Virus record (IMG/VR): IMGVR_UViG_3300034272_001613
Span: 1-31,175 of that record
DNA from: a virus
DNA length: 31,175 nt
Reading direction: 5' to 3' (one strand)
Position 1 is the stretch's first letter; each line of letters starts with the position of its first letter. The notes below the pieces were generated by a model that was not told the DNA's origin, did not search any database, and saw nothing but the letters and a program-made list of their open reading frames with translations. Below, in pieces: positions 15,852-25,242 of this stretch. Made by a program: the position numbers and the translations under genes.

Positions 15852-17042
15852 TTATTCGCCTAATTGAAAGTCATAGACAAATTTCTTAGGATCTAAATCT
15901 CCTGGGACGTCTATTTCTAGATTGTATGGAATTATTGGCATCGAGCCGACACTGACCCTAGCTCTAGGTTCAGTATCCGATATTTCAAGTTCCCATTCAA
16001 AAGCTCGATCGTCTTCCACTGTGTCCCAAACGATGAAGTTTAGAATCAGATCAACTCTTTTTAGTGAAGCGTCTATACTGTCGATCCCAGTTGAACCATA
16101 GTCAACGTCGATCGCATAGTATACTCTAACCAAACCAGCTTCGATTTCTTCTAGTTCAAATCTGCTCTTGTTTTCAATTCCATAATTGACCAATTGTGCC
16201 TCTTCTTCTTGATTCCAATCTGGGAATCTGCGTTTGATCTCTTTAACTAACTCTGCCGGCATTGGCATCGAAGATTTGTAATTCAAAGAATAATCTCTTC
16301 GTTCAAGATCTGCTGAAAATAGACCAGTTTGAGGATCATATTTTTCGTTAACTGCTCTAACTTTCTTTGCGAGGTCCTTGTCAGCTTTTCCCCATGTGCC
16401 TTTTCCTTTGGTAGCAAAAGAATTTACTCTTGCCATTGCCCATTGATGTTGGCTTACTCCAGGTCTGTGGCCTGTTCTCCAGGCAGCAAGTCCGCGATTG
16501 TAGACTTTCTTAAGGATTCCCTTTGCGATTCCAGTCTTCTCAGACTTGTTTGAAAGAGCTTTATCTACTTCGCCCTCATTGATTGCAGCCGATTCACCAA
16601 ACATCTCTTTGAATTTCTTAGTATGGCTACTCATCTTTGTTTTGTATGGCTTTCCCGATTTATCATAGTCCGCTTTCCATCCACCATTTGGATGAGACGT
16701 GTACGCTGAAGCATCATCTTCGTCCTTGTGTGCATGCTTCTTGATCTCGTCCTTCATTGCCTTAGCATTCTTCGTAAGGTATTTTGGATTAATCTTTTCA
16801 GCAACATTTGCAGGCTGGAGGTCTGTTTCCATGAGTCCAGATAGAGTAACAATGCGTCTACCGTTTTGATCAGCGACCGGTTTATCAAGTTCAACTTCAT
16901 AGAAATTAATTCCAGGCAGATGAGATTGGCTGTATCGTTCAACTACTGTTGCGATTAGGCCATCTGCTGCTTGGAAGATCTCATTCTCCAGTCTTTCTGC
17001 TGAAAAAGTTAAGATTACCTTGTCATCTATTGTGTAATTCAT
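15852..17042 (-). CDS. Head-associated protein with DUF5824-like domain
   Basis: This 396-residue protein has an N-terminal beta-rich domain (~1-75). Then comes a Lys/Asp-rich linker holding AAINEGE (a good (I/L)-x-E/G protease site). The domain GILKKVYNRGLAAWRTGHRP and SQHQWAMARVNSF (~175-225) recalls the phage and giant-virus domain called DUF5824. A C-terminal beta domain (~245-396) is acidic and carries SMPMPAELVKEIKRRFPDW. Function unknown. It overlaps the 82-residue gene by ATGA and ends at a strong terminator. The possible protease site in the linker would cut off the N-terminal domain during prohead maturation. The DUF name is from memory. Confidence 0.65.
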   Translation of the reverse strand: MNYTIDDKVILTFSAERLENEIFQAADGLIATVVERYSQSHLPGINFYEVELDKPVADQNGRRIVTLSGLMETDLQPANVAEKINPKYLTKNAKAMKDEIKKHAHKDEDDASAYTSHPNGGWKADYDKSGKPYKTKMSSHTKKFKEMFGESAAINEGEVDKALSNKSEKTGIAKGILKKVYNRGLAAWRTGHRPGVSQHQWAMARVNSFATKGKGTWGKADKDLAKKVRAVNEKYDPQTGLFSADLERRDYSLNYKSSMPMPAELVKEIKRRFPDWNQEEEAQLVNYGIENKSRFELEEIEAGLVRVYYAIDVDYGSTGIDSIDASLKRVDLILNFIVWDTVEDDRAFEWELEISDTEPRARVSVGSMPIIPYNLEIDVPGDLDPKKFVYDFQLGE

Positions 17043-18539: not shown

Positions 18540-20029
18540 TATTGTTGATTTTTATTTTTCCAAAATTCTGCGAATTCCATGATTCGCTTTTTCTTTTTCT
18601 TTGGATTGAAGTTATCTCCTGATCCAAGAGAAGTTTGAGTAGGTGGCGTAATTGGACCCATTGAACCAATTGATCCGGGTACCTGAAATGCTACACCGGG
18701 ACCAGCTTCCTCATTAGCTTTCGCTTTCGCGGCATATTTGTCCAAGTATTCAGTAGTCGGCATCATTAATCTAGATATTGCATCAGCTTTCATTTCGCCT
18801 TCTCTGCCTTTGACCGCTTTACCAATAGTCTTTGCTAACTTGTTTAGACCTATTGAATAGATTGTTGAGAATCCTTTACCTATCTCTTCAGCTGCTCTAT
18901 AGCCAGCCGTTTGATTAGTCGGAGTAAAGATTGTATTGAGTAGGTCAGATGCTTTTTTACGAGCTCTACCTAAAAACGATGCATCTGCAATTTGTTTACC
19001 AGACACAGGTAACATAACAGTTTGAAATAATGGAAGTTTGATATTGAAATCATAGTGAATTCCCTTGTTCATATCGATCTTAATCGACTTGTCTTGGGCC
19101 TTTTTAAGAAGAGTCTCTTCGATTTGAGTTACCCATGACGTCAAATATGCTTTTGAATCTTCATCCAAATTTTCGTTTTGACCAATTCTAACCATTTTTA
19201 ATAAACGAGCAGTTTCCTTGATTTCCGCTTCAGTTGAATAGAGCTGTTCGTATTCTAAAATATCTTGAACGATCTTTGTGAAGTGAATGTTTGCTTTACG
19301 GCCAGACTTTATCTCTTCGAGCTTATCTTGACCAATTTCTTTAGCAACCTCATCTTCAATCTTTTTAGATGCGTCAGTTACTCCAACTTTAACTTCTTCT
19401 GGATACTCTTCAGTAATTTCCTCAAGAATTTGAACGTCTTCAATTACGGCAGCTGCTGCGTTAATCTTTTCAGCTTCGTCATCCGATTTTTTAATAACGA
19501 CTAATTTATTCTTAACTTCCTCCGATTTTACTAGGATCGGAGAATAGTAATATGCAAATATGTCTTCTCTAATCGAACTAAGTTTTGAAATCACAGGTGC
19601 AGATTTCTCGCTCTTTGCTCTAGAGTAGATCAAATTAAGAGTATCAATTCTATCCGAGATCTTAGCAATATCTAAATTGAGAGATTTGATGTAGTCTGGA
19701 TTTTGAACCATCGACTTTAGCGCCTCAGCTAGTTTAGTTTTAGCGATCCCGATTCTGATTTTACAATATTCCAAGTAATCGTTCATTGTAGAAATTACTT
19801 GATCTGCTGTAAACGCATTGATAAAGTTCTCGTTATTCAAATAACGTTGAACATCACCATCAATCAAATCATCGATCCACTTGTCGATCTTGTCGTATTT
19901 GTCCTGTTTTTGACTAGTGCTGTCGCCGTCACCGCCTGAGACCTGAGCAAGATCATTGCCTACGCGAATGATATCCGCTTCTAGTAGAAGGTCCTCGTAT
20001 TTTGCAAGTCTTGTTACTTTTAATCTCAT
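18539..20029 (-). CDS. Helical 496-residue protein carrying a capsid N-arm-like segment
   Basis: The N-terminus RLAKYEDLLLEADI again resembles a targeting/cleavage segment (LLE/A). Residues ~40-310 are mostly charged helix with Glu/Lys/Ile pattern. Residues 320-435 include GIHYDFNIKLPLFQ and an amphipathic Gly/Lys region. Residues 444-474 copy the start of the mature capsid protein: P-G-x-x-F-Q-x-P-G-S-I-x-S-M-G-x-I-x-x-P-T, and then GSGDNF against GSGDKF. After this come five Lys and a second targeting-like tail IMEFAEFWKN. I know no homologue. A prohead core or capsid-lining role is inferred from the shared arm. Overlaps couple it to both neighbours. Confidence 0.75.
   Translation of the reverse strand: MRLKVTRLAKYEDLLLEADIIRVGNDLAQVSGGDGDSTSQKQDKYDKIDKWIDDLIDGDVQRYLNNENFINAFTADQVISTMNDYLEYCKIRIGIAKTKLAEALKSMVQNPDYIKSLNLDIAKISDRIDTLNLIYSRAKSEKSAPVISKLSSIREDIFAYYYSPILVKSEEVKNKLVVIKKSDDEAEKINAAAAVIEDVQILEEITEEYPEEVKVGVTDASKKIEDEVAKEIGQDKLEEIKSGRKANIHFTKIVQDILEYEQLYSTEAEIKETARLLKMVRIGQNENLDEDSKAYLTSWVTQIEETLLKKAQDKSIKIDMNKGIHYDFNIKLPLFQTVMLPVSGKQIADASFLGRARKKASDLLNTIFTPTNQTAGYRAAEEIGKGFSTIYSIGLNKLAKTIGKAVKGREGEMKADAISRLMMPTTEYLDKYAAKAKANEEAGPGVAFQVPGSIGSMGPITPPTQTSLGSGDNFNPKKKKKRIMEFAEFWKNKNQQ
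18608..18700 (-). other. Capsid N-arm-like segment (PGSIxSMG module)
   Basis: This encodes residues 444-474. Fourteen of 21 positions (444-464) are identical, without gaps, to residues 58-78 of the major capsid protein, and GSGD-x-F follows in both. Confidence 0.8.
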
Positions 20030-20439
20030 CGTTGGTTAAGCAAATATGTTAATTTGTTTCTAAGCATTTTGATGTTGTCCATCTCGTTAAAGAGTTCTGA
20101 ATCTTCTTCCTTATCGAATACTTGACAGAAGATGCTGTAGCACTCGTCAACCATTTCACAAAAATCCATGTGGTTTCCGCTATAATCAGTAAGTCCGATT
20201 TGTGCGTCTCCGAATTGGAAACATTCAACTCCATATTTACCAAGGATTCCTTCAACGATTGCATCAGCAAGCGGTAAGAATGCATCATAAAACATTCCAA
20301 ATTGAACGTGTTCAGCTTCCATTTTAGTTTGCCAGTGATTAATGTGTGCCTGGTCTCTTACTTGAAGGAGTGCCAAAATAAAATGAGTCGCTTCGTATTG
20401 ATTTTCTTGAGATCCGATCTCGAAATTTTCTAAGTTCAT
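20026..20439 (-). CDS. Ferritin/Dps-like helical protein (DUF5856-type)
   Basis: This 137-residue protein is predicted all-helical. The first helices read ATHFILALLQVRDQAHINHW, QTKMEAEHVQFGMFYDAFLP and LADAIVEGILGKYGV. The spacing of H-x-x-HW-x-T, then EH, and later D-x-x-VE-x-x-x-G resembles Dps-like four-helix bundles and a small family seen in T4-like phages, called DUF5856 as I recall. Whether the acidic and His residues form an iron site cannot be told. ATGA overlaps link it to both the small gene before and the 496-residue gene after. DNA protection in the head is a speculative role. Confidence 0.6.
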   Translation of the reverse strand: MNLENFEIGSQENQYEATHFILALLQVRDQAHINHWQTKMEAEHVQFGMFYDAFLPLADAIVEGILGKYGVECFQFGDAQIGLTDYSGNHMDFCEMVDECYSIFCQVFDKEEDSELFNEMDNIKMLRNKLTYLLNQR

Positions 20440-20718: not shown

Positions 20719-22290
20719 GTGAAATTTGAAGATATTACTCCAGAAGACGCAGAACACGTATCTAAAATCTATTGGAACAAGGACCTTACTTGGGACGAAC
20801 GAATGGACAGACTTGTCGAATACTTCGGCAAATCTACCAGAACTGTTCAAAAATGGCTCAGTAAACTTGGCATAAAGGAAAAGCCTGATCAGGAATCTCC
20901 ACAGTACACAAAGGCTAAAGAAAGAACCCTTGACCAACGTAAGAAGAAATTTATAATTACTTGGGCCCAAAACGATACACCTGTTCATGAGCCGTTTATT
21001 AATAACATTGAGGCTTATGCAAAATACATTAATGCTAGCATTCACGTAATCGCTGGACGCTATAAAAATCCAACATCAGTCTTTACCGATAAGAGCTATG
21101 AGACTTGGAGCGATCGAATTTTAGATTATCTTGATGCAAATCGCCATGAGGTTCATAAGTACATGGCAATCATGTCAGACGTTAAGATCCAGCCGACTGC
21201 GGTAGATCCGATGACGGGTTTACAAGGAATGTCAGGAATAAATTCATGCGTCTTTGGTTCGCCTAAAGTTCAACTTGAAACAATTCCAGTCCTTGAAGGT
21301 AATGTACCTAAAATGATGCTGACGACCGGCGCCTGCACAGTTAGTAATTATACCGATTCCAAATCCGGTAAAAAAGGAGAGTTCCACCATACACTAGGTT
21401 TTGTAATCATTGAAATTAAGAATGATGAAATCTTCTTTGCTCGTCAAGTAACCGCAACTGATGATGGTAACTTTTCAGATCTATTCTTTCATACTGAATA
21501 TGACGAAGAGACTCAATCTAGCAAAGTTTCTCGATTAGATAAGATCTCAGCAATTGTTCTTGGGGACCTTCACTATGGCCAGCATGACGTAAGAGTCGTT
21601 AAAAAGACGGTAGATCTATTTAAGAAGCTTGAGCCAGAAAATGTAGTTCTACATGATGTGTTCGACGGACTCTCAATCAACCATCACGAGCTCAACGATC
21701 CATTTATCCAATTCCAACGAGAAATGGATGGATCTAACTCTCTCAGAAATGAGATTGACGCAATGCTGATTGGACTAGAAAGCTTTAAAGATTATAACGT
21801 AACTGTTGTTCGCAGTAATCATGACGACTTCTTAGATCGATGGCTGAAGAGCACGGATTGGCGAAAAGCCAATACTCTACGTAATTCGATCGAGTACATG
21901 GAGTTTGCAGCCCTACTTCTTAGAGGTCAGGCTCCGCAAGGCATTATCCCATATCTTATTAAGCAGAAATTTCCAAACTTCAATACTCTCGGTAGAAGCG
22001 ATTCATTTGTTATCAATGATTGGGAATTGGGATTGCACGGTGATGTTGGATCAAATGGATCTAGAGGATCCCTGCTTCAATTTAGAAAGCTTAATAGAAA
22101 GATGGTAGTTGGACACTATCACTCACCTGGTCGTAAAGACGGAGCATTATCAGTTGGAACGTCAACTAAATTGCGAGTTAATTATAATGTAGGACCAAGC
22201 TCATGGCTTCAATCACACGTCATAATTCACCTTGATGGAAAGGCTCAACATATTAATTTCATTAGTGGAGAATTTACAACCCTATCTTAA
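20719..22290 (+). CDS. HTH domain fused to calcineurin-like metallophosphoesterase
   Basis: This 523-residue protein has a GTG start. The N-terminus (20-52) looks like a helix-turn-helix (LTWDERMDRLVEYFGKSTRT, VQKWLSKLGI). Residues ~75-250 form an unassigned middle region beginning with a beta strand (KKFIITWAQND). Residues ~275-500 are a metallophosphoesterase: GDLHYGQHD (282-290), HDVFDG (312-317), SNHDDF (366-371), LHGDVGSNG (439-447) and GHYHSP (465-470). Together these supply the two-metal site. Similar phage phosphoesterases include the A1-type protein of T5, which acts in host DNA degradation. That comparison is from memory. It is a lone plus-strand gene between minus-strand operons, with an end overlapping the convergent ligase gene by 4 bases. 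Nuclease or nucleotide phosphodiesterase are both possible. Confidence 0.75.
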   Translation: MKFEDITPEDAEHVSKIYWNKDLTWDERMDRLVEYFGKSTRTVQKWLSKLGIKEKPDQESPQYTKAKERTLDQRKKKFIITWAQNDTPVHEPFINNIEAYAKYINASIHVIAGRYKNPTSVFTDKSYETWSDRILDYLDANRHEVHKYMAIMSDVKIQPTAVDPMTGLQGMSGINSCVFGSPKVQLETIPVLEGNVPKMMLTTGACTVSNYTDSKSGKKGEFHHTLGFVIIEIKNDEIFFARQVTATDDGNFSDLFFHTEYDEETQSSKVSRLDKISAIVLGDLHYGQHDVRVVKKTVDLFKKLEPENVVLHDVFDGLSINHHELNDPFIQFQREMDGSNSLRNEIDAMLIGLESFKDYNVTVVRSNHDDFLDRWLKSTDWRKANTLRNSIEYMEFAALLLRGQAPQGIIPYLIKQKFPNFNTLGRSDSFVINDWELGLHGDVGSNGSRGSLLQFRKLNRKMVVGHYHSPGRKDGALSVGTSTKLRVNYNVGPSSWLQSHVIIHLDGKAQHINFISGEFTTLS

Positions 22291-24095
22291 AGATCTCGGT
22301 TGTAAGTAAAGAATTCTGAATGAATTGCTGAAGGCGTAAGACTCTTGTATTTTGCAAAGTCTTGCGCCTTTATTGCGTCTAGAGCTTCGAATGCTTCAGG
22401 CGAATAAGGAATTGCAAATAGATTCAAGTTGTTTTTAAGATTAAGATTTCTTGATCGTTTCTTTGCGTGTTCTAATTGAAGAGCCATATCTGCAAGTCTA
22501 CCCTTTTCGGCACAAAGACTTACTGGTTCAAAATCTGGTTTAATTACATTGATCACTTTTGCGATATCCGCCTCGTTCACTAAGAAGAACCCAGCCACCC
22601 TCTCTGGATTAGATGATGCGTACTTCTTTAGAGTAGTTTTAATCGTTTCAGGTGAAATTGGGAACCTCTTGGATTTGGTTCCAGGATGGACTCCTATTAA
22701 AACTACAGGATGACCATTCTCTTCAAACATTCTATCAATAACTCGTGAATGACTATTTGTGATTGGTTGAAAATCTGATATGATTATGTTTGCAAGTTTA
22801 GTCTTGCGTTTTTCTGATGGAACTTCAGCAAACGATTCAAAATAACCAGGCTCAGAATCCGTTCCAACAAACTCAGAGAAAGTTGGAAAGTAATTTTCGT
22901 ATAGGACGTTCTCGTTCACGATGTTTGCGATTTTGTTGATTTGTGAGTGTAGTATCTCTTTCATCGGCTGTGTGAAGAAACTTGCACCAATTCGGATATT
23001 CTTCTTTCTGAAGACATTAAGTAGAATTCGATAGATCTCCTTAAAGTTTGGATTAGTTTCGATCGTCTCAATAACTTCAGGATTGTTGATTAGATTAAAA
23101 TTGACGCCAAACTCGTCCTTTTTCAAATAGTCTGGAATTTTAATATCTAATCCTAAATACTTATCGCCAAATTCTTTGACAAATCCCAAATAAATTGAAT
23201 TAATTAGTGAGACGTACTTCTCTTCTGGAGAATTTCCATCCATATCAAGAGCTCTAAGCTCAGCATTAGAGAACCTTTCGATATAGTTCATTAAATCTAT
23301 TACTGTGATCCAAATGTAATCATCACTCTTTTTTGATTCAGCTCTTTGCGTCTCAGCTCGTTGGATAGCATTCTGCTGGAACCATGGATCTACTAATTTT
23401 GCCAAGAAAACTGAATCCTCTTTAGCGTCAACTTCTGGATCGTAAAATCTAAAGACTAGGCCTTCAATTGCCTTGTCTAATCCTTCTTTTAGGAATGAAT
23501 CTTTTATTTGTGGATTGAATACTCCAAGTATATGTTTCGTGAATGATTCGGTCTTAAACTTTTCAAGTAACTCTTCAGTTGGCGTATAAATGAATTCCAT
23601 TATCTCGACCTTTTGATCATCAGTCAACTTGCCTTCAAATACGATAGGTGGACGTTCAACTTGTAATTTATCAGCCCATTCATTAAGCGTCTTGCTGTCC
23701 TGAACAGTCTTTGCGATATTTCCGCTTTCGTCCAATACATGAACATAGCTGAGAATCAATTGATTTTGTGGAAGTCTGTCGTATTCAATATTTTGTGAAT
23801 TCTTATTTGTGAAGAACTCAAATCCAAACGTGTGACCGCATGGAATGCTCTCTTTGCCAATAGATTCAAAATGAGAAACAGCCGGTTCGTAGTATCGGCT
23901 TAAGACTCGATCGATATACGAGATCTTACCGTTCTTTTTGAGATATTCAGTCTGGCCAGTTTCGCAGCTCTTTTGAACTCCAAAAAACGCGCCATCCATC
24001 TTCTCATTCACGATTACGTGTTTGTTAAGAAGGTTTTCGATAAACTCCTTGCCTTTCTTTTCTGCAAGGTCTTTAATGTGTGATAATCCAGCCAT
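22287..24095 (-). CDS. Ligase-type nucleotidyltransferase fused to NMNAT-like nucleotidylyltransferase
   Basis: This is a 602-residue protein. Residues ~1-240 carry the polynucleotide ligase motifs: motif I EKMDGAF with nucleophile Lys32, Ia KKNGKIS (53-59), III FGFEFFT (90-96), IV EGLVF (211-215) and V LAKLVD (231-236). Residues ~245-430 are helical linker. Residues ~435-600 look like a NadM-type domain, with IIISDFQPITNSHSRVIDRM corresponding to the GRFQP-x-H-x-GH nucleotide-binding motif and SLTPSAIHS near the end. The ligase part lacks an obvious OB fold and may be RNA ligase-like. It is preceded 8 bases away by a kinase and then a HAD phosphatase, so an end-healing and sealing pathway is likely. 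The NMNAT part could make NAD, or act on nucleotide ends. Confidence 0.7.
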   Translation of the reverse strand: MAGLSHIKDLAEKKGKEFIENLLNKHVIVNEKMDGAFFGVQKSCETGQTEYLKKNGKISYIDRVLSRYYEPAVSHFESIGKESIPCGHTFGFEFFTNKNSQNIEYDRLPQNQLILSYVHVLDESGNIAKTVQDSKTLNEWADKLQVERPPIVFEGKLTDDQKVEIMEFIYTPTEELLEKFKTESFTKHILGVFNPQIKDSFLKEGLDKAIEGLVFRFYDPEVDAKEDSVFLAKLVDPWFQQNAIQRAETQRAESKKSDDYIWITVIDLMNYIERFSNAELRALDMDGNSPEEKYVSLINSIYLGFVKEFGDKYLGLDIKIPDYLKKDEFGVNFNLINNPEVIETIETNPNFKEIYRILLNVFRKKNIRIGASFFTQPMKEILHSQINKIANIVNENVLYENYFPTFSEFVGTDSEPGYFESFAEVPSEKRKTKLANIIISDFQPITNSHSRVIDRMFEENGHPVVLIGVHPGTKSKRFPISPETIKTTLKKYASSNPERVAGFFLVNEADIAKVINVIKPDFEPVSLCAEKGRLADMALQLEHAKKRSRNLNLKNNLNLFAIPYSPEAFEALDAIKAQDFAKYKSLTPSAIHSEFFTYNRDL

Positions 24096-24103
24096 ACTTG
24101 GTT

Positions 24104-24111
24104 TTATTTAT
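24104..24111 (-). promoter_or_regulatory. Late-promoter motif overlapping the kinase stop codon
   Basis: The minus strand reads TGAATAAATAAAAC. It contains the TAA stop of the kinase and lies 8 bases before the ligase ATG. It is A/T-rich and could be chance. Confidence 0.45.
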
Positions 24112-24706
24112 TCAAACCAAGCGCGAGATTACAAGATTGTATGAATTGGTTAACTGACGCTTGGTCAAAGGTATTTTTAGCGAGGTGTATTGAATTGTTA
24201 CGATCGGTGTTAGCTAGATCATAAACTCCATCCTGAATGAAATCTGACATTAAGTCAATTTCGTCTTGAGTTCTTACTTTGCCATCCCAGTGATCTTTTT
24301 GCCTTTCGGCATCGCCAGTTTGGCCTTCTGGTAAAATGAATATTGTATTGCAGTTACGAAATAGTTCAGAGCCGACTAGCTTCAAGTATTCCTGTCTAGC
24401 TCTAGTCTTAGTCAATCGGTTTCTGAGAATTGCCCAAGTGTAAGCAGATACAATAGCTCTATCAAAGATCCATAACTTATCAGAGTATTGAGGCCTTAAG
24501 TTCATTTCCATAATGGTCATGATATTGCCAAGGCTAAAGTAATGAAGTCCGGGCTGATCTTCTTGCCATTCAAGATCAAGGGTCTTCAAATGATTTGCGA
24601 AATAAAACTTGTAGTACTCGACTCTTGGGTCAGTATTCTGCTCAAGAAATCTTTCAATCAGATAAGTTTTACCACTGTGTCGTGGTCCTTCAACAAATAG
24701 TATCAT
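24104..24706 (-). CDS. P-loop kinase (nucleotide or polynucleotide kinase)
   Basis: This 200-residue protein starts MILFVEGPRHSGKTYLIERF. The P-loop GPRHSGKT (7-14) is at the very N-terminus. IFDRAIVSAYTWAIL in the middle resembles the D-R-x-x-x-S-x-x-(A)-Y motif of thymidylate and deoxynucleoside kinases. An Arg-rich lid-like region RQKDHWDGKVRTQDE follows. It overlaps the HAD phosphatase by ATGA and is followed 8 bases later by the ligase. The sequence class points to dNMP/deoxynucleoside kinase. The context points to 5'-end phosphorylation. I cannot decide between them. Confidence 0.7.
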   Translation of the reverse strand: MILFVEGPRHSGKTYLIERFLEQNTDPRVEYYKFYFANHLKTLDLEWQEDQPGLHYFSLGNIMTIMEMNLRPQYSDKLWIFDRAIVSAYTWAILRNRLTKTRARQEYLKLVGSELFRNCNTIFILPEGQTGDAERQKDHWDGKVRTQDEIDLMSDFIQDGVYDLANTDRNNSIHLAKNTFDQASVNQFIQSCNLALGLNK

Positions 24707-25242
24707 AATATAGTTAGTCTTTCTACCTCAGCATTCGATTCGAGTAAACAGGCAGTTTCCCAATCGATTTTGACTATTTTACTCTTATCTACAAAATAAA
24801 AGACGATATCGATGCCTGATCCATTTATGCCTGAATCTAACAGATATGCAGTGTAGCAAATGATCTCCCAAAGAGAATCTTCAAAAATAGTAATCGACTT
24901 GGGGTCAGTGTCTCGGATCATATCAAGTACAACATCGGCTTTTTGTGAACCTCTGCCTAGAAAATGAACTTCGTGAAACATTAAATTGTTCTCATGAAGT
25001 ATCTCCATGACTCTGGATTTAGTTGCCGATACTCTGTGAGTAATTAGAACATTGTGACAATCTTCTTTAGTCTTGTCAATTGTGTTTTTAATTCCTCTGA
25101 TATTAAATCGATCAGACAGAGATTCTGGTGAATCAAACCATTCGTATGGAGATTTTCCTTTGGCTTCTGAACATGTGTATCCGGGAACCCTAAATAAGGT
25201 TTCGTCAAAGTCAAACACGTTGATATGAGTAACATTTTCCAT
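24703..25242 (-). CDS. HAD-superfamily phosphatase, HAD_SAK-like (RNA-repair type)
   Basis: This 179-residue protein has motif I INVFDFDETLFRVPG with Asp11 and Asp13, and the downstream YEWFDSPESLS. That wording recalls the HAD domain of Swiss-Army-knife RNA repair proteins (Pfam HAD_SAK_1 as I remember). Motif II is LITHR (Thr68), motif III Lys is probably K101 (GRGSQKADVV), and motif IV is IFEDS (Glu121, Asp122). T4 Pnkp combines kinase and HAD 3'-phosphatase in one protein. Here the two are separate adjacent genes, with ATGA coupling to the kinase. It is the first gene of the cassette, and no late motif precedes it. Nucleotidase activity is the alternative. Confidence 0.75.
   Translation of the reverse strand: MENVTHINVFDFDETLFRVPGYTCSEAKGKSPYEWFDSPESLSDRFNIRGIKNTIDKTKEDCHNVLITHRVSATKSRVMEILHENNLMFHEVHFLGRGSQKADVVLDMIRDTDPKSITIFEDSLWEIICYTAYLLDSGINGSGIDIVFYFVDKSKIVKIDWETACLLESNAEVERLTIL

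Follow-up and report, generated by a model that had tools for sequence, protein, structure and literature searches.

A widespread phage protein joining an RNA ligase fold to a degenerate NMNAT-like domain, with a possible role in RNA-end repair

The 31,175-nucleotide stretch of viral DNA analysed here (IMG/VR record IMGVR_UViG_3300034272_001613, positions 1 to 31,175; "the window" below) encodes a protein in which a sequence-only reading recognised a polynucleotide ligase followed by a nicotinamide mononucleotide adenylyltransferase (NMNAT)-like domain, and which, it suggested, could couple synthesis of nicotinamide adenine dinucleotide (NAD) to ligation, restore NAD during NAD-depleting host defence or act on NAD-capped RNA. 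Are both domains present, is their fusion real, and what would it do for a phage? RNA ligases and NMNAT-like enzymes are phage answers to tRNA cleavage and NAD depletion, and are treated separately in the relevant passages of two surveys (PMC7824862, PMC9503650). We find that the fusion is genuine and widespread among uncultured phages, with both domains on one chain in the proposed order, whereas the link between NAD synthesis and ligation found no support. Tentatively, and at somewhat less than even confidence, we interpret the protein as an RNA-end repair ligase carrying a degenerate, probably ligand-binding NMNAT-like domain.

Two folds in one chain

The window is a 31-kb virus record in its own right. 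Its fusion gene encodes 602 residues as predicted and lies on the minus strand (Table 1); a plus-strand reading of 22287-24095 was rejected because the interval is packed with stops. The EKMDG motif with its Lys32 and the C-terminal segment DFQPITNSHSRVID are both present as quoted beforehand. Profile searches and structure prediction identified a ligase fold in the N-terminal part and a HIGH-type nucleotidyltransferase fold in the C-terminal part, so that neither outcome named beforehand as refuting the fusion occurred.

Residues 26-233 match the RNA_ligase family PF09414 (E 1.3e-5, 25.9 bits, slightly below the curated cut-off of 27), as do 18 of 20 scanned family members (best E 5.5e-10), and the relative L004 matches the RNA ligase family phrog_548. 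An AlphaFold2 model was built from 20 aligned sequences; with a mean predicted local distance difference test score (pLDDT) of 75 and a predicted template modelling score of 0.41, its domain packing is unreliable. Searched with Foldseek, the N-terminal part had T4 RNA ligase 2 (Rnl2) as its top match (E 1.9e-7), followed by Trl1 and RNA editing ligase 1, and its fold is nearer to RNA ligases than to DNA ligases. Single-sequence hhalign to T4 Rnl2 gave no significant match, so the assignment stands on Pfam and structure; a phmmer search of the single window protein against the PDB likewise gave no useful match. The window ligase retains K32, E93, E211 and K233 of motifs I, III, IV and V, with Arg216 in motif IV where Rnl2 has a lysine, and a single lysine in motif V. 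Motif I begins 31 residues from the N-terminus, leaving no room for domain Ia, which confers NAD specificity on ligases according to the portion of PMC9503650 concerned with them; ATP is therefore the likely donor, judging from the sequence. Layout was predicted correctly in that the ligase comes first and the NMNAT-like domain last, but the roughly 190 residues between them are more than a linker: they are helical, are conserved between near relatives to the same degree as the ligase core, and probably make up the ligase's own C-terminal domain, the counterpart of that in full-length Rnl2.

Assignment of the NMNAT-like half follows from several profiles and from structure. The CTP_transf_like family matches the window protein at E 0.032 and 12 of 20 members overall (best 7.6e-7), and the family profile searched against the PDB returned the archaeal NMNAT MJ0541 first (E 0.0027), then other NMNATs and PPATs. 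Foldseek placed the C-terminal part among NadD, PPAT and NMNAT structures at about 1e-4. The motifs are less complete. Of the HxGH-type motif, the window keeps FQP and the second histidine, with serine for glycine in two places (one of them S448) and T446 for the first histidine; human NMNATs likewise carry threonine for the first histidine (ITNMH). The SGTxxR site reads SPEAFEAL, with Leu572 replacing the arginine. Of the 56 sequences that could be scored, 53 have lost this arginine, and L021, L029 and L108 keep it; misalignment is unlikely to explain its loss, since L021 aligns without gaps to the other members there. The relative L036 (LR756500) has an SGTxxR-type motif in the form ISASVVR. 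The proposed NadM-type domain thus holds for its fold, and not for its signature arginine.

Variation and selection across the family

Two scans of IMG/VR, yielding 34 and 80 overlapping loci, gave 58 distinct full or near-full sequences, the window included, from uncultured T4-like jumbo phages. They share 38-73% identity and are conserved in all three regions. With the fusion recurring in so many sequences from many metagenomes, a chance joining or a single-assembly chimera was rejected. A cellular origin was rejected as well, no relative having turned up among the 84,980 bacterial and archaeal genomes scanned.

Purifying selection has acted on the whole chain. Between the window and its nearest relatives, L001 or L002, each of the three regions has a dN of 0.15-0.28 and synonymous sites are saturated, so that dN/dS (the ratio of nonsynonymous to synonymous change) is only qualitative there; in closer pairs it is at most about 0.06, the NMNAT-like part included. 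The degenerate domain is therefore kept for some function.

Eight residues are invariant across the 58 sequences (E31, G35, R216, K233, D236, F442, P444 and H449), while others vary. Lysine stands at residue 32 in 53 sequences, and the remaining five have N, R, H or V there; at residue 211 glutamate (35 sequences) is the commonest, followed by aspartate (18), glycine (three) and asparagine (two); and the first HxGH position varies among T, H, S and N. By parsimony, Lys32 has changed to another residue at least four times. Distant members occur in five uncultured megaphage genomes, all five without Lys32 and four of them without the C-terminal domain.

These losses, together with that of the SGTxxR arginine, suit a largely non-catalytic protein whose two domains bind nucleotides or RNA, for example one that holds together the kinase and phosphatase encoded beside it, or a late-stage or virion component. 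The persistence in megaphages of a ligase-like half that has neither the lysine nor an NMNAT-like half beside it, the position of the gene beside head and tail genes, and the prohead-targeting-like start of the middle operon gene of relatives fit this idea. However, E31, G35, R216 and K233 never vary, K32 is kept in nearly all members, the window has a full ligase set, and the fusion itself has no capsid-targeting-like start; we regard the protein being largely non-catalytic as unlikely. The small gene in question lies between kinase and fusion in most relatives (L004:5380-5992, with equivalents in L006-L034) and is absent in the window; its N-terminus presumably resembles the T4 capsid-targeting signal.

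Judging by motifs, the window copy appears to combine a complete ligase with an incomplete NMNAT, and L036 the reverse: there the ligase lysine is lost (ENLDG), GRFQP..GH is kept along with ISASVVR, and next to the fusion lies a separate ligase-like gene (L036:6703-7966) whose EKLDG is intact and whose product starts with a prohead-targeting-like sequence. Such natural variants without one or the other active site make the link between ligase and NMNAT testable.

Two further features of the family were seen. Many members reach 964-1013 residues through an extra C-terminal domain of about 380 residues (L004:7800-8943 and the matching ends of L005-L007, L011-L019 and L027), which carries GxGE..GDI..IE(V/I)K, looks by eye like a PD-(D/E)xK nuclease and is missing from the window copy. 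At L025:5991-8851 the fusion gene is split into three frames on one contig, apparently through a frameshift or an error in assembly.

Operon partners and possible RNA-end repair

The fusion is the last gene of an operon. Genes for a HAD phosphatase and a P-loop kinase precede it on the same strand, overlapping each other by 4 bases, with a gap of 8 bases between kinase and fusion, and the order HAD, kinase, fusion is kept across relatives. HAD_SAK_1, described as "HAD domain family 1 in Swiss Army Knife RNA repair proteins", matches 12 of 19 HAD members (best 1.4e-9), although not the window copy alone; the catalytic residues D11, D13, K101 and D122 are invariant. In the kinase family the P-loop and DR motif are invariant, the family profile matches deoxynucleoside kinases (1.7e-6), and AAA_28 is found in 20 of 24 kinases. 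Structures matched by a model of the kinase (pLDDT 90) include thymidylate and deoxynucleoside kinases as well as the complex of NadR with nicotinamide riboside (6gyf). Identity as a polynucleotide kinase is unsupported, none being among the fold matches listed.

The Swiss Army Knife (SAK)-type HAD partner points to RNA-end repair, and the NMNAT-like half, being without its signature arginine, probably aids such repair rather than making NAD. In the predicted scheme the phosphatase would remove terminal phosphates, the kinase would phosphorylate a 5'-OH end, and the ligase would charge Lys32 with AMP from ATP, activate the 5'-phosphate and seal the break, most likely in a host-cleaved tRNA. 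The NMNAT-like domain, which is under selection although half of its catalytic signature is gone, would bind an adenylylated ligand or a 5'-phosphate end (adenylylated RNA (AppRNA), NAD or ATP), positioning or sensing it, and no NAD would be made by it in this phage. Both folds, the operon, purifying selection and the state of the motifs are shown directly, whereas the enzymatic activities, the RNA substrate and the binding function are inferred.

Several observations weigh against this scheme and keep our confidence modest, chiefly the identity of the kinase: its modelled fold is like those of thymidylate, deoxynucleoside and NadR kinases, which leaves nicotinamide riboside chemistry open. 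Relatives also encode other, more canonical RNA ligases elsewhere, so a second ligase would need a special target. Finally, the absence of Lys32 from five of the 58 sequences and from the five megaphage members, and the variable Glu211, imply that ligation is not the family's only role.

In another possible function, the kinase would phosphorylate nicotinamide riboside and the C-terminal domain would make NAD from nicotinamide mononucleotide, as in a split NadR, with the ligase using or sensing NAD, so that NAD would be rebuilt during NAD-depleting defence. Favouring it are the NadR and AAA_28 matches of the kinase, the archaeal NMNAT that heads the sequence matches to the C-terminal domain, and the threonine shared with human NMNATs. 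Yet the kinase is closer to thymidylate and deoxynucleoside kinases than to NadR and is encoded as a separate gene, the SGTxxR arginine is gone in the window and nearly all relatives, the neighbouring HAD protein is an RNA-repair type, and the ligase has no domain Ia of the kind assigned to NAD-dependent enzymes in part of PMC9503650. According to the same part of that survey, every phage with NadM also has NadV. NadV occurs in G010, one of 11 large IMG/VR relatives searched, and in all five megaphages, which favours NAD making; the records of nine of the 11 lack it, and none was seen in records as large as 216-271 kb, although records may be incomplete. With domain Ia and the arginine absent and NadV rarely found, the proposed coupling of NAD synthesis to ligation is not upheld, and we judge an NAD-making operon rather unlikely.

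Two further observations concern HAD genes. HAD loss coincides with Lys32 loss in L087 and L104, which are two related sequences only and were not used as evidence. L156:1114-2535 and L157:862-2205 (both minus strand), from relatives of the window phage, each encode a HAD domain fused to a HIGH-type nucleotidyltransferase with GKFKPPHxGH and VSGTLMR intact.

A second family with the reverse domain order

The separate ligase-like gene of LR756500 led to two proteins, WWT39297.1 of Microcystis phage Mel-JY01 and one in LR756508, in which the NMNAT-like domain precedes the ligase-like domain. At least 304 IMG/VR stretches, many of them fragmentary, belong to this reverse-order family, in which the catalytic motifs are for the most part intact. 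Among 25 full-length open reading frames (23 from IMG/VR plus these two), an N-terminal P-loop is present in 18 and GRFQP in 24, and the fused kinase is Zeta/AAA_33-like. Each of the 40 IMG/VR sequences checked has the signature GRFQPxxxH..SGTxxR intact, with SGTxxR after GRFQP, which counts in favour of NAD making. The ligase half shows the ordered motifs EKLDG, EGIVFKY and YKFTG, and 8 of 13 members match PF09414 weakly (0.0082); profile comparison with the window ligase detected no similarity, and its profile search against the PDB gave no match. If its identity as a ligase holds, joining in two orders argues for a functional link, and from these sequences the pairing looks recurrent and functional. 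Marine phage chains of up to about 1640 residues that combine kinase, NMNAT-like and ligase-like domains adjoin terminase genes (L186:3423-7304; loci L160-L239).

The two orders also count in favour of the possibility that the C-terminal domain acts on RNA 5' ends, either by transferring AMP onto a 5'-phosphate or by handling NAD-capped RNA, after which the ligase would seal without its own lysine. NMNAT and ligase step 2 form the same kind of 5'-5' pyrophosphate, so the bond chemistry is shared, and the LR756500 fusion, with ENLDG but intact nucleotidyltransferase motifs beside an EKLDG ligase gene, is what such a division of labour might look like. Against this, we know of no HIGH-superfamily enzyme that adenylylates RNA, and the window copy shows the opposite of what is predicted, with the arginine gone and the ligase lysine kept; we consider this the role of the C-terminal domain only with marked reluctance, as quite improbable. 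A broader proposal, that RNA ligases and HIGH nucleotidyltransferases form a recurrent, unrecognised phage repair module in two orders, in which the nucleotidyltransferase makes NAD or adenylylates the RNA end for the ligase and the active sites share or trade adenylylation, strikes us as doubtful. The conserved joining of both domains in one chain nonetheless suggests a chemical or regulatory link.

Genomic setting

Elsewhere in the window are T4-like genes for a major head protein, a head maturation protease, baseplate and tail proteins and a UvsW-type helicase; the window phage is a large T4-like phage. The gene at 20719-22290 (plus strand) strongly matches phrog_1745, "DNA transfer protein" (E 3.6e-149), and also matches metallophosphoesterase and HNH families weakly. 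At 20026-20439 (minus strand) lies a DUF5856 protein that matches phrog_858, "starvation-inducible transcriptional regulator", and the protein at 15852-17042 (minus strand) has a domain in common with the C-terminus of phrog_3041, "cytidyltransferase", and no nucleotidyltransferase motif.

Table 1. Positions in the window of the fusion gene, its domains and key codons, and its operon partners
Feature	Positions	Strand	Basis or remarks
Ligase–NMNAT-like fusion gene	22287..24095	-	602 aa plus stop, ATG start
ATP-grasp/RAGNYA RNA ligase nucleotidyltransferase domain, residues 1-240	23376..24095	-	PF09414; Foldseek T4 Rnl2, Trl1, REL1
Lys32 codon, motif I nucleophile (EKMDG)	24000..24002	-	K in 53/58 distinct relatives
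Helical conserved region, residues 241-430	22806..23375	-	AlphaFold2 model; ~383-column alignment to Rnl2; 78-79% identity to nearest relatives
HIGH-superfamily nucleotidyltransferase (NMNAT-like) domain, residues 431-602	22290..22805	-	pLDDT mostly 85-93; Foldseek; MJ0541 profile match
HxGH-type motif FQP..TNSH, residues 442-449	22749..22772	-	F442, P444, H449 invariant, 58 sequences
Leu572 codon, at position of SGTxxR arginine	22380..22382	-	Aligned against L036 ISASVVR
P-loop kinase, 200 aa (GPRHSGKT; FDRAIVSA), similar to deoxynucleoside, thymidylate and NadR kinases	24104..24706	-	
HAD phosphatase, 179 aa (DFDET, K101, ED121-122), Swiss Army Knife RNA-repair type	24703..25242	-	

Comparison with known systems

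Keyword searches of open-licence literature turned up no account of a ligase–HIGH fusion, in agreement with the earlier statement that no characterised protein has the ligase-then-NMNAT order; the reverse order is common in marine phages. Nor is it mentioned in the passages listing NadM (Nudix), NadR (kinase) and Rnl2–HNH fusions in two surveys, one on RNA repair in jumbo phages and one on the NAD systems of phages (PMC7824862, PMC9503650). A database relative is A0A6J5NWC5, from an uncultured Caudovirales phage in a viral structure library, which belongs to the same family (41% identity over 609 columns) and exists as a database record only, named "Cytidyltransferase-like domain-containing protein" after its C-terminal domain. 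Related proteins being annotated only as cytidylyltransferases, their ligase halves are easily overlooked. The phage "cytidyltransferases" of phrog_395 and phrog_3041 (S-PM2, HTVC008M) have an NMNAT-like domain too; the S-PM2 and HTVC008M examples were rejected as the same fusion because they lack ligase motifs.

The ligase half shares its fold, the KxDG motif I and motifs III, IV and V with T4 Rnl2 (gp24.1) and with Trl1 and REL1 (PF09414). As in Rnl2, a helical C-terminal region follows, and the T4 Rnl2 gene also sits among head genes; unlike Rnl2, the fusion has Arg216 for the motif IV lysine, an extra NMNAT-like domain, very low sequence similarity and relatives in which the nucleophilic lysine is missing. 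The C-terminal half resembles NadM, NadD and NadR (HIGH superfamily, PF01467) in its fold and FQP..H motif, but lacks the SGTxxR arginine in the window. Its fusion partner is a ligase, whereas, in the section of PMC9503650 on such fusions, phage NadM is joined to Nudix and NadR to a kinase; in contrast to NadR, the window NMNAT-like domain and kinase are on separate genes.

Like the fusion, the Mel-JY01 protein WWT39297.1 ("cytidylyltransferase like protein") and its marine phage counterparts have both domains on one chain near virion genes; they differ in the opposite domain order, a different ligase subfamily and intact NMNAT motifs. Jumbo-phage RNA repair sets, as described in part of PMC7824862, combine ATP-grasp ligases with SAK-HAD and polynucleotide kinase. 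The window operon resembles those sets in that its RNA ligase and P-loop kinase have a SAK-type HAD as a neighbour, and departs from them in a kinase that is like deoxynucleoside, thymidylate and NadR kinases rather than polynucleotide kinase, and in a ligase that bears an NMNAT-like domain.

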